DNA from: Paenibacillus mendelii
GTDB lineage: Bacteria; Bacillota; Bacilli; Paenibacillales; Paenibacillaceae
Length of the DNA: 64,000 nt
Assembly: GCF_024498075.1 (NCBI RefSeq)
Contig: NZ_JANHOF010000001.1
Location: 806,001-870,000 of the forward strand
Direction: 5' to 3'
The stretch's first letter is position 1, and each line of letters begins with the position of its first letter. The notes under the pieces were generated by a model. It had not been told where the DNA came from. It saw only the letters and a list, made by a program, of their open reading frames with translations, and made no database searches. This document shows positions 2,986 to 55,294 of the stretch, piece by piece. The translations under genes were made by a program, and so were the position numbers.

Positions 2986-3252
2986 TTACCGGCTCTTCAC
3001 CAGCAGCTCGATGGCTTCTTGCACCATCTTGCTCGAATCCCTGCCGGCCGCTTGCTCTTCCAGAATGCACTGCTGCAAATTCTCGGCTACGATCTGCGCG
3101 ATCGCCTTATCTGCTGCATTACGAACAGCAGACAATTGACTGACCACGTCCTTGCATGATTTCTCCTCCTCCATCAAGCGAAGAACACCGCGAACCTGCC
3201 CTTCAATTCGGCGAAGTCGTTTTTTAACATCGTCTGTGTAGTTATAGCTCAT
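2986..3252 (-). CDS. cstR: CstR-like persulfide-sensing repressor (CsoR family)
   Basis: An 88-residue all-helical repressor of the CsoR/RcnR family. The start is the ATG at 3252, ten bases downstream of AGGAGG; a longer frame to 3312 is open but has no ribosome binding site. Two cysteines, Cys33 and Cys62, are 29 residues apart as in CstR. The copper-ligand histidine of CsoR, four residues before the second cysteine, is Asn58 here. This argues for CstR, which forms di- to tetrasulfide links between subunits when persulfides accumulate, rather than a copper sensor. Flanking TusA, rhodanese, DsrE, TauE and persulfide dioxygenase genes agree. Its own promoter region holds a matching operator at 3408-3425. 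Confidence 0.85.
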   Translation of the reverse strand: MSYNYTDDVKKRLRRIEGQVRGVLRLMEEEKSCKDVVSQLSAVRNAADKAIAQIVAENLQQCILEEQAAGRDSSKMVQEAIELLVKSR

Positions 3253-3271
3253 CCGAATCAAACCTCCTATA

Positions 3272-3331
3272 AGTTTTGTGGAGCGATGCTTCCATGAGTT
3301 TCTTCGCAACAAAACTCAATTCGGAAGCATA
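3272..3331 (-). repeat. Fourth copy of the 60-66 nt leader element
   Basis: Read on the minus strand this 60-nt stretch runs TATGCTTCCG ... GAGTTTTG ... ATCGCTCCACAAAACT and ends three bases before the AGGAGG of the cstR-like gene. Aligned without gaps it matches the third repeat before gluQ (54244-54305) at 43 of 60 positions by my count, with the ends best conserved. It can form ATGCTTCC/GGAAGCAT around GAGTTT/AAACTC, or alternatively AGTTTTG/CAAAACT. Confidence 0.7.
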
Positions 3332-3407
3332 ACTTCGTCTTGTGCTGCCAGGCCACGCAGATGTTCATCGCTATAATCGACATCGGAAGCGCGACTCTTA
3401 TAATTCC

Positions 3408-3425
3408 TATACCTGTATAGGTATA
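3408..3425. promoter_or_regulatory. CstR-type operator of the cstR-like operon
   Basis: TATACCT-GTAT-AGGTATA is an inverted repeat with a four-base GTAT centre, the same architecture and spacer as the site at 7203-7218. It lies in the likely promoter region of the cstR-like operon, 156 bases before its start codon. Autoregulation is inferred from family behaviour. Confidence 0.7.
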
Positions 3426-21672: not shown

Positions 21673-21700
21673 AGTTAACCCCTCCTGCTTGAAATAAAAA

Positions 21701-21727
21701 ACTGCCCTTAACACTAGTTAAGGGCAG
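21701..21727 (-). terminator. Terminator of the csp gene
   Basis: An 11-bp perfect stem ACTGCCCTTAA/TTAAGGGCAGT with TTTTTTAT after it on the minus strand. It sits between csp and ydjO. Confidence 0.9.
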
Positions 21728-21743
21728 TGCATGTTGCGTAAGC

Positions 21744-21944
21744 TTACAGTTTTACAACGTTCTCAGCTTGTGGTCCGCGGTTGCCTTGTACCACGTTGAA
21801 TTCTACACGTTGACCTTCGTCAAGCGTTTTGAATCCGTCGCCTTGAATTGCGGAGAAGTGTACGAATACGTCGTTTCCGCCTTCAACTTCGATAAAACCA
21901 AAGCCTTTTTCTGCGTTAAACCATTTTACTGTTCCTGTTTCCAT
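21744..21944 (-). CDS. Cold shock protein (CspB/CspD type)
   Basis: A 66-residue single OB-fold RNA chaperone that melts mRNA structure at low temperature. RNP1 reads KGFGFIEV and RNP2 VFVHFSAI; length and sequence are those of Bacillus CspB/CspD. The ATG at 21944 follows GGAGGTC; ten extra in-frame codons upstream are part of the leader. A promoter at 22081-22109 implies a 5' leader of about 130 nt with a strong hairpin, as expected for csp mRNAs. Confidence 0.95.
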
Positions 21945-22000
21945 TTGAAATGACCTCCAAAAATTTATTAACATGTTTTTTTTGATACAAACAAAAAATC

Positions 22001-22051
22001 ACACATTGAGAAAGGTACCATCAGACAAATGATCACCTTTTTCAATATGTG
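22001..22051 (-). promoter_or_regulatory. Hairpin in the csp 5' leader
   Basis: CACATTGAGAAAGGT and ACCTTTTTCAATATGTG are nearly complementary over about 15 bp with one bulge and enclose an 18-base loop in the predicted leader. A temperature-responsive role is inferred from the known behaviour of csp leaders. Confidence 0.5.
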
Positions 22052-22080
22052 AATTTAAGGTTAAGATTTGCTATAAACGT

Positions 22081-53940: not shown

Positions 53941-54017
53941 GGAGCTGTGGTGTAGAGGCCTAACATGCCTGCCTGTCACGCAGGAGACCGCGGGTTCGAA
54001 TCCCGTCAGCTCCGCCA
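53941..54017 (+). tRNA. tRNA-Asp (anticodon GTC)
   Basis: A complete 77-base tRNA including an encoded CCA. The acceptor stem pairs GGAGCTG with CAGCTCC; the anticodon arm is CCTGC-CTGTCAC-GCAGG with GTC at 53975-53977; the T arm is GCGGG-TTCGAAT-CCCGT (one wobble). G34 is the target of queuosine insertion, and the glutamyl-Q synthetase that acts on it lies directly downstream. Confidence 0.95.
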
Positions 54018-54045
54018 TTATTTTATTATATGAGCCGAATTTTAG

Positions 54046-54077
54046 GAGCAGGAGCGCAAGCGTCCCTGCTCTTTTTT
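54046..54077 (+). terminator. Terminator of the tRNA-Asp gene
   Basis: GAGCAGG pairs with CCTGCTC and is followed by TTTTTT. Confidence 0.85.
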
Positions 54078-54111
54078 GTCGGTTAAACCATACAAATACG
54101 TGTAAACTATA

Positions 54112-54305
54112 CCTATGCTTCCGCAGCAAGTTTTGCTGCGTTGTCTATTCAGAGGAGTATCGCTTCACAAAACTAAGCCTATGCTTCCGTAGCGAGTTTT
54201 GCTGCGTTGTCTATACAGAGGAGTATCGCTTCACAAAACTAAGCCTATGCTTCCGCAGCGAGTTTTGCTGCGTTGTTTATTCAGGGAGTATCACTTCACA
54301 AAACT
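54112..54305 (+). repeat. Three tandem 66-bp leader repeats before gluQ
   Basis: Three head-to-tail copies start at 54112, 54178 and 54244 (66, 66 and about 62 bp, the last short by one base and cut at ACAAAACT). Each runs CCTATGCTTCCG ... TTTTGCTGCG ... GAGTATC.CTTCACAAAACT. Each can fold into CGCAGCAA-GTT-TTGCTGCG; changes in copies 2 and 3 keep the pairs as wobbles. Only 10-11 differences are seen. The last copy ends three bases before AGGAGC, the ribosome site of gluQ. The frame reading through all three is a by-product of the 66-bp period. Confidence 0.9.
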
Positions 54306-54322
54306 TTTAGGAGCTGGTAGAC

Positions 54323-55294
54323 ATGACGTTGACTCCGGTACGAGGACGATTTGCACCGACGCCTTCGGGGCTCATGCATATCGGCAATATGCGGACCGCC
54401 CTTATCGCCTGGCTGCAGGTCCGCAGCGCGGGCGGGCAATTCGTGCTGCGCATGGAAGATATCGACAAGCCGCGCTGTCGCCCGGAGCTTGCAGAGCAAG
54501 CGCTTGCCGACCTGAAGTGGCTCGGTCTGGATTGGGATGAAGGACCGGATATCGGCGGCCCATTCCCCTCTTATGTCCAGAGTGAGCGTGAATCGTTATA
54601 TAGGGATGCGTTAGATAAGCTTGAGCAAGAAGGCAGACTCTACCCCTGCTTCTGCACCCGGGCTGAGCTGTTGATGGTTGCAAGCGCCCCTCACGGCTTG
54701 AACAGCGAAGGGCCGGTTTACCCCGGAACATGCAGGCTTCTCTCCAATGAACAGCGCGAAGAGCGAAGTCGTGATAAAACCCCTTCGCTCCGAATGGCTT
54801 CACCCGGCCATGATATTTGCTTCCAAGATCTTGCGGCAGGGCCGCAGCGCTTTCCTGCCGATGCGGTCAGCGACTTCGTCGTGAAGCGCGCAGACGGTAT
54901 TATTAGTTATCAGCTGGCCGTCACGATTGACGATGCCGCCATGCGCATAACCGATGTGCTTCGAGGATACGATCTCCTTGACTCTACTCCGCGGCAGCTG
55001 CTGCTCTACGAGGCCTTAGGCCTCCCTGCGCCAAGATTCACCCATATTCCGCTTTTGATGGGGCAGGACGGCAAGCGGCTTGCCAAGCGGCATGGCGGCA
55101 TGGCAATAGCCGCCATGCGGGCAAACGGCGTCCATGCCGAGCACCTTGTCGGATGGATAGCCGCGCACAGCGGTTTAATCGATAAGCCTGAGCCCGTCCG
55201 TCCCCATGATCTTATTCAGGAGTTCAATCTGGACCGTATTCCGAAGGATCCCGTGACCGTAACCGACCTTATGCTTCAATCGCTGCTCGGCTAG
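54323..55294 (+). CDS. gluQ: Glutamyl-Q tRNA(Asp) synthetase
   Basis: A 323-residue enzyme like the catalytic half of glutamyl-tRNA synthetase without the anticodon-binding domain. It attaches glutamate to queuosine at position 34 of tRNA-Asp. The HIGH-type motif is PSGLMHIGN, the KMSKS-type loop is GKRLAKR, and the zinc site Cys109, Cys111, Tyr133, Cys137 (CFC ... YPGTC) is that of GluQ-RS. AGGAGC precedes the ATG by eight bases. The tRNA-Asp gene is 305 bases upstream on the same strand, with three 66-bp repeats between. Confidence 0.93.
   Translation: MTLTPVRGRFAPTPSGLMHIGNMRTALIAWLQVRSAGGQFVLRMEDIDKPRCRPELAEQALADLKWLGLDWDEGPDIGGPFPSYVQSERESLYRDALDKLEQEGRLYPCFCTRAELLMVASAPHGLNSEGPVYPGTCRLLSNEQREERSRDKTPSLRMASPGHDICFQDLAAGPQRFPADAVSDFVVKRADGIISYQLAVTIDDAAMRITDVLRGYDLLDSTPRQLLLYEALGLPAPRFTHIPLLMGQDGKRLAKRHGGMAIAAMRANGVHAEHLVGWIAAHSGLIDKPEPVRPHDLIQEFNLDRIPKDPVTVTDLMLQSLLG

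Follow-up and report, generated by a model that had tools for sequence, protein, structure and literature searches.

Hairpin repeats placed directly before ribosome sites form a dispersed, probably undescribed family in Paenibacillaceae

Upstream of a gluQ-type gene in Paenibacillus mendelii, a unit is repeated three times in tandem, and a related copy precedes a cstR-like gene elsewhere in the same stretch of 64,000 nucleotides (hereafter the window). The locus raises the question of what such a unit does so close to two ribosome sites, and how it came to be there. An earlier note on this DNA had offered two readings, a structured leader RNA that affects ribosome access, or a small mobile repeat that had landed twice.

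Copies in the window, the genome and the order

The three copies before gluQ form a direct repeat with 66-nt spacing at 54104-54301 and are each recognised by a covariance model on the plus strand, copy 1 at 54115-54174 (57.2 bits), copy 2 at 54181-54240 (53.9 bits) and copy 3, the terminal one, at 54247-54305 (57.8 bits). The right arm of the terminal copy, CAAAACT, stops 3 nt before AGGAG, and TTT-AGGAG (54306-54313, plus strand) comprises the 3' border of the element and the ribosome site of a 323-aa gene (54323-55294, plus strand) that scores above cut-off for tRNA glutamyl-Q(34) synthetase (NCBIfam NF004315 and TIGR03838). Upstream lie a tRNA (53941-54014, plus strand, Rfam) and, between it and the array, a hairpin with a T run that by eye resembles an intrinsic terminator (54046-54077, plus strand). 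On the minus strand, a single copy (3272-3330, 58.7 bits) ends 3 nt before the AGGAGG ribosome site (3263-3268) of an 88-aa gene (2986-3252) for what we take, partly from general knowledge of the family, to be a CsoR/CstR/RicR-type repressor; its match to the NCBIfam RicR model (E 1e-16, 61 bits) is under that model's cut-off of 175. The window holds four copies in all. At gluQ CACAAAACT is followed by TTT-AGGAG, at the cstR-like gene by TAT-AGGAGG. With up to three mismatches, CACAAAACTTNTAGGAG matches three times in the window against 0.19 expected, two of the matches being exact and at the gluQ and cstR sites, and GAGTTTTG-N10-35-CACAAAACT matches three times against 0.00 expected. The cstR copy is not among the matches listed for a BLAST search with copy 1, and the pattern and the covariance model both find it. 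The earlier note's description of the repeat, of its orientation relative to each gene and of its end three bases before the ribosome site was correct at both places. An inverted repeat, TATACCTGTATAGGTATA, lies 5' of the cstR-like gene at about 3407-3425 and is kept in a relative, G105; presumably it resembles the operator of a CsoR-type repressor.

The source genome (G000; 8.13 Mb in 79 contigs) contains 29 matches to AGTTTTG-N15-45-CAAAACT-N1-6-AGGAG and none to the reversed control. A covariance model built from 70 of 122 non-redundant units, trimmed so that the ribosome site lay outside the search, gave at least 128 copies in 58 arrays at E ≤ 0.01, a lower bound that leans to the best copies because 150 of 2631 first-look candidates were scored. 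Sixteen arrays consist of one copy, 29 of two, five of three, three of four, three of five and two of six; half (29) are the exact-pattern arrays, and the 29 that the exact pattern missed were inspected separately. After the last copy, 57 of the 58 arrays have a ribosome site (AGGAG, GGGGG or TGGAG) and, 4-13 nt on, an ATG, GTG or TTG that opens a frame of at least 45 codons, against a background of 0.38% of positions (245 kb of genome, both strands). One extra degenerate unit precedes the ribosome site in two of the 29 non-pattern arrays. The exception, L412, has a ribosome site, no in-range ATG, GTG or TTG with a frame of at least 45 codons, and a possible CTG start. The loci collected hold 184 strict terminal sites, a few of them counted twice because AGGAGGAG can match in two ways; a start lies 4-13 nt after AGGAG at 180 of these, and the remaining four have no in-range frame of 50 codons. 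The element is thus a dispersed family whose bias of strand and distance to ribosome sites is almost absolute. Unbiased scatter, lack of covariation and lack of further matches, which the earlier note had named as evidence against its reading, did not occur, and its 'landed twice' understated a repeat that is indeed dispersed and occupies 58 arrays in this genome.

The strict pattern is found in 78 of 197 genomes of the family, in 9 of 19 genera and with up to 45 matches each (reversed control, one match), and 119 of the 197 have none. In the order as a whole, with short loops allowed, 109 of 296 genomes have the strict pattern; they come from 16 of 48 genera and two of the eleven families sampled, and the reversed control has no match in the 296. 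Among the matches listed, those in the second family are mostly of a short form (AGTTTTG, loop of 5-9 nt), with five long ones; the short form AGTTTTGCTAAAGCAAAACTTTTAGGAG is the commonest among the matches listed for genus g42 of family f6 (G282, G304, G316, G319). A named scan returned at least 118 stretches with the element, and the 80 titles listed are all Paenibacillus or Fontibacillus except for one 'Bacillus sp.' and one Bacilli MAG. P. typhae and P. jilunlii are among the species with a match.

The genes served include gluQ, serA, leuS, nagB, trpS and hxlA, as well as genes for a glutamine amidotransferase, arabinose-isomerase-like, asparaginase-like and QueG-like proteins, Ku, glutathione peroxidase, phosphoglucose isomerase and a ribosomal L15-type protein. 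The 30 of 58 array genes scanned by profile show no obvious pathway in common. A general module should serve such a mixture, but neutral landing should give one too.

Helices and folding of the unit

Terminal copies read TATGCTTNCGAAGY-N-AGTTTTG-loop-CAAAACT-TTTAGGAGG (85 of 138 non-redundant sites aligned), and each unit has a 5' motif, GCUUNCGAAGY, followed by the hairpin AGUUUUG...CAAAACU. Units come in a long form of about 66 nt and a short form of about 40 nt, with periods of 62-70 and 38-43 nt and loops mostly of 27-34 or 5-9 nt. Automatic chaining of array starts added spurious units at the 5' end and served for variant finding only. Inner copies end with the border variants CAAAACTTTTAGC, CAAAACTTAAGC and CAAAACGAAGC, followed by the next TATGCTT, and the hairpin foot of the last unit stands a few nucleotides (usually 3) before a strong ribosome site, UUUUAGGAGG, which arrives as part of the element. 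The TTT before AGGAG likewise belongs to the element, because among 73 starts without an element flag just 2 have it. At five loci (L022, L036, L041, L048, L051) the long loop is of a sub-type that itself contains a strong hairpin (CGCTTC...GAAGCG or similar), so long loops are not always unstructured.

The AGUUUUG/CAAAACU helix covaries. The choice of units, which predates the covariance model, relied on the 5' motif plus either a further motif or a ribosome site after it. Of the 537 units so chosen, 424 have arms that each differ from the consensus by at most two letters; both arms are exact in 343, the left is changed in 37, the right in 19 and both in 25, where the margins predict 6.4, counts in which copies within an array are non-independent and many loci were first found through exact arms in a neighbouring copy. 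Pairing is intact across all six positions in ten of the 25 double-changed units (8 loci), as in GTTTTC/GAAAAC and GTTTTA/TAAAAC; some of the others have co-deletions or shifts, to which the six-letter test is blind (AGTTTG/CAAACT, ACTTTGG/CCAAAGT). At the orthologous site L286, G105 has AGTTTTG/CAAAACT and G000 has AGTTTTA/TAAAACT. By eye, the terminal stems of the 29 non-pattern arrays are consensus in 6, changed but pairing in 15 and interrupted by a break or bulge in 8; the covariance model that found these arrays includes the stem and favours paired variants, a lean from which the 424-unit count, made earlier, is free. Since the arms were the basis for choosing the rows of alignments A1 and A2, the lack of any two-sided change there by RNAalifold or pair counts is not evidence either way. 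The earlier note had labelled this pair a competing one, and it is the one that covaries.

Its two other helices fared less well. The 5' motif pairing with the loop, ATGCTTC/GGAGTAT, is weakly supported as a candidate helix: over 285 long units, with their relatedness left in, own loops score 13.02 against 12.58 for swapped loops (sd 0.12; maximum of 200 swaps 12.99). A candidate pseudoknot that combines this pairing with the stem likewise has own loops just slightly above swapped ones. The family does not share the CGCAGCAA/TTGCTGCG helix: own arms score 4.95 and swapped arms 4.92 (sd 0.07), and at least seven of its eight pairs form in 17 of 85 aligned terminal copies. We dropped a pairing of the 5' motif with the ribosome site (CUUCC/GGAGG), since the N of GCUUNC varies. 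Of the structured leader RNA once proposed, the leader placement and one covarying hairpin hold, while one of the other helices is weak and the other not conserved.

As RNA, the consensus stem is weak (RNAalifold, -2.64 kcal/mol), and it appears in 2 of 8 single-sequence minimum-energy folds (z -3.65 to +0.12). Compared with dinucleotide shuffles, the fold is more stable in 41 of 58 cases at 66 nt and in 53 of 58 at 132 nt; the mean energy of the leader over 132 nt upstream is -47.4 kcal/mol against -40.5 shuffled. The ribosome site is predicted to be more open than in shuffles in 35 of 58 (66 nt, p 0.013) and 41 of 58 (132 nt, p 8.5e-5), with an accessibility at 132 nt of 0.393 against 0.309, a small gain (0.39 against 0.31-0.33). 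These modelled folds fit a self-contained module that would frame the ribosome site better than one that would hide it.

Base use also bears on which strand acts. Across 85 rows, the 5' motif has G-C as its first pair in 56, G-U in 21 and A-C in none, and this use of wobble pairs fits the transcribed strand. Wobbles point the same way just outside the stem, where U faces A or G in 61 of the 85 rows (7 rows gapped) and G in 29 copies. Against this, a different pair of the 5' motif hairpin is a T-T mismatch in 14 of the 85. Single-sided changes in the stem do not separate an RNA from a DNA reading. An Rfam T-box lies 5' of the leuS array (20 of 58 array loci scanned), and T-box-like letters can be seen by eye at thrS and at trpS of G105; the thrS and G000 trpS loci have no T-box match at the Rfam gathering score. 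By a crude measure that includes chance frames, 31 of 57 arrays begin within 80 nt of the end of a same-strand open frame. Promoter-like hexamers 5' of the arrays have no uniform distance to them. On the strength of this sequence context, the arrays probably serve as transcribed leaders and not as operators.

Site histories and the explanations they bear on

Among 13 gluQ-type loci of the genus that were viewed, arrays occur only in G000 and G105, and a tRNA precedes gluQ in 8 of the 11 viewed relatives without the element there. In G033 (L241) the region 5' of the gluQ start has about four tandem copies of another repeat, of about 48 nt (GGATTGGTTTGAGCGGCCGGTAGGACGATCAGC...), and the element is absent there. 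Nineteen of the 29 strict G000 sites are common to G105; the G105 orthologues of the other ten comprise two with a degenerate element, one with a remnant, two with none recognisable (one of them with possible remnant letters) and five that were not located. G105 also has 18 distinct sites that lack a strict counterpart in G000. Seven of these could be located in G000, where two have the element, one a 3' remnant and one a decayed copy, two are empty or scarred (efp, folD) and one is without; at pgi and one more G105 site, the covariance model later found a G000 array (L401, L410). The serA element is borne by six genomes, with pairwise identities of 77-87% among the pairs listed.

At the 19 shared sites, where the search pattern forced the arms but not the 5' motif, the 12-nt motif is 0.86 identical and the loops 0.73, against 0.59 for unrelated loops, and third codon positions are 0.65 identical (15 of the 19 measurable). 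Copies within an array are 0.91 identical in G000 (15 arrays) and 0.93 in G105 (9 arrays). Hence loops drift, about as fast as synonymous sites, the motif is better kept and array copies stay alike. The best reading of the whole is a module that selection maintains, that duplicates in tandem and that is now and then gained or lost. Specifically, we give an even chance to a cis-acting mRNA leader hairpin module that frames the ribosome site. Its units would fold on themselves while the leader is transcribed and would keep upstream RNA off the ribosome site, so that every gene served, even one that follows a T-box or lies within an operon, would have a framed and well-exposed initiation site to itself. 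The tandem copies would come from duplication and contraction and may tune the effect. It would then be the RNA form that acts, translation that is aided and copy number that matters. Counted against this module are the weak stem, the small gain in accessibility, the T-T pair in 14 of 85 copies, the 8 broken stems of 29, and the fact that most relatives do without the element (119 of 197 family genomes; folD filled in one of 22).

The main rival, which we hold possible though doubtful, is a repeat that homes to ribosome sites, entering at TTTAG^GAGG (bottom strand 5'-CCTCCTAAA) by template switching on shared ribosome-site letters or through some enzyme and bringing its own ribosome site along, so that placement would reflect the target and not usefulness. 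In its favour are two borders, written here with slashes: at folD, where one of 22 genomes of the genus (G105) has the element, G105 reads CATAATTAG/CCGATGCTT...CAAAACTTTTAG/GAGG and G000 CATATTTAGGAGG, and at efp, G105 reads CTACTTCAG/CTTATGCTT...CTTTTAG/GAGG and G000 CTACTTTTAGGAGG. At both, the unit sits between TTAG-like letters and GAGG; some linkers between copies, such as TTTTAGC, repeat the same border, and the genes are unrelated. However, most sites are old (19 of 29 common to G105 at 65% third-position identity), loops differ between loci, unlike recent copies of one source, and Y1 transposases, the enzyme class tested, are absent from 9 of 10 element-rich genomes. The 'empty' efp and folD sites may themselves be scars of loss, because TTT before AGGAG is otherwise rare (2 of 73). 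A reading that merges the two, in which a leader repeat homing to ribosome sites would spread without a transposase by way of ribosome-site letters, replace the host's initiation signal and act as a tandem copy-number dial on translation, seems to us rather doubtful.

A regulated switch, in which a protein or small RNA would bind the repeated motif and co-control many metabolic genes (for example a CsrA-like protein at a loop GGA, or a partner of GCUUNCGAAG), is unlikely: each unit does repeat conserved motifs at a fixed position relative to the ribosome site, and many long loops have a GGAAG-like stretch, but GGA is not constant in long loops, many short forms with loops of 5-9 nt are without it, and the genes are diverse, among them those for a ribosomal L15-type protein, LeuS, Ku and sugar permeases. 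We regard as very improbable a DNA-level site, with the tandem palindromes as targets of a DNA-binding protein or as chromosome marks whose nearness to starts would serve transcription: a covarying palindrome would exist in DNA too, and the main text of PMC8161180 proposes nucleoid-protein binding for the abundant fixed-size tandem repeats of Paenibacillus, but nothing at the DNA level accounts for the fixed few nucleotides to the ribosome site, 31 of 57 arrays start (by the same crude measure) within 80 nt of the end of a same-strand open frame, and the leuS promoter should lie farther up, because a T-box is upstream of the array.

If the leader module proves true, it would be a natural translation module, used by many genes and species, that duplicates and may move, and it would extend the unexplained tandem repeats known in these bacteria by a class that sits at start sites. 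Ready-made leaders would become possible for expression work in a plant-beneficial, industrial genus, and how repeats come to serve genes is a question that the element makes directly testable.

Known repeats and leaders

Rfam matches in the whole window are limited to tRNA and a cspA thermoregulator RNA (21698-22067, minus strand, 84.2 bits). A permissive Rfam search of 54000-54400 has no match over the element copies, and 20 of the 58 array loci gave only a T-box and a tRNA, none at the element; a known RNA family was rejected on these searches. A phage or plasmid origin was rejected (no phage match; a partial match in one Paenibacillus plasmid record), as was a tandem upstream open reading frame (the period is 66 at gluQ but 67 elsewhere, and copy 2 has an early stop). 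Our literature search, with subscription journals mostly outside its scope, found the element unnamed and six of its strings unprinted. The SBR5 RNA-seq paper describes an Rfam comparison, and the word 'repeat' is absent from its available text (PMC5670726); 'Paenibacill' is absent from the available text of PMC6429828. The element is a real and large family, probably undescribed, whose leader repeats are locked to ribosome sites.

The REP system is one close comparison, and we know of no tie between REPs and ribosome sites. REP/REPIN sequences with their RAYTs, as part of PMC3733652 describes them, resemble the element in being small, dispersed hairpin repeats, partly tandem and, like the element with its at least 128 copies, numerous. 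Element-rich genomes differ in mostly having no Y1 transposase (9 of 10): PF01797 occurs in 1 of 10 of these and in 4 of 10 poor or empty ones. We therefore rejected REP/RAYT mobilisation, and landing by a REP/IS200-type transposase is unsupported.

Subirana and Messeguer (PMC8161180) report tandem repeats of 52 nt and of 20-21 nt in Bacillus and Paenibacillus that, in that paper's main text, share with the element a constant unit size, short conserved motifs within a variable rest and strain-variable array lengths. Their 52-nt class has units of 51-53 nt, whereas the element has periods of 62-70 or 38-43 nt, and the words 'ribosome', 'upstream' and 'start codon' are absent from the main text. 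Six arrays with the unit size of that class (51-52 nt) occur in our own set of loci (L122:5530-5965, L135:5006-5162, L142:1336-1514, L178:5444-5952, L186:5336-6328, L199:7739-7994), and by the same test none adjoins a start codon.

At the element borders we noticed no terminal inverted repeats by eye, and the TTAG-like letters that flank the unit at folD and efp could be a target duplication or a shared linker. BOX is another gene-adjacent transcribed repeat. NEMIS, ERIC and bcr1 are MITE-like repeats beside genes, some of them transcribed, according to part of PMC3733652. The element is gene-adjacent like these, but it abuts the ribosome site, in one orientation, in nearly every array.

T-box and riboswitch leaders are structured RNAs before genes, as is proposed for the element, which differs in serving unrelated genes (30 scanned), in its variable loops and in following a T-box at leuS. 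The ompA and aprE leaders have 5' hairpins that stabilise the mRNA or shield the ribosome site; they are a working analogy only, with no homology claimed, being single leaders where the element is a dispersed tandem family.
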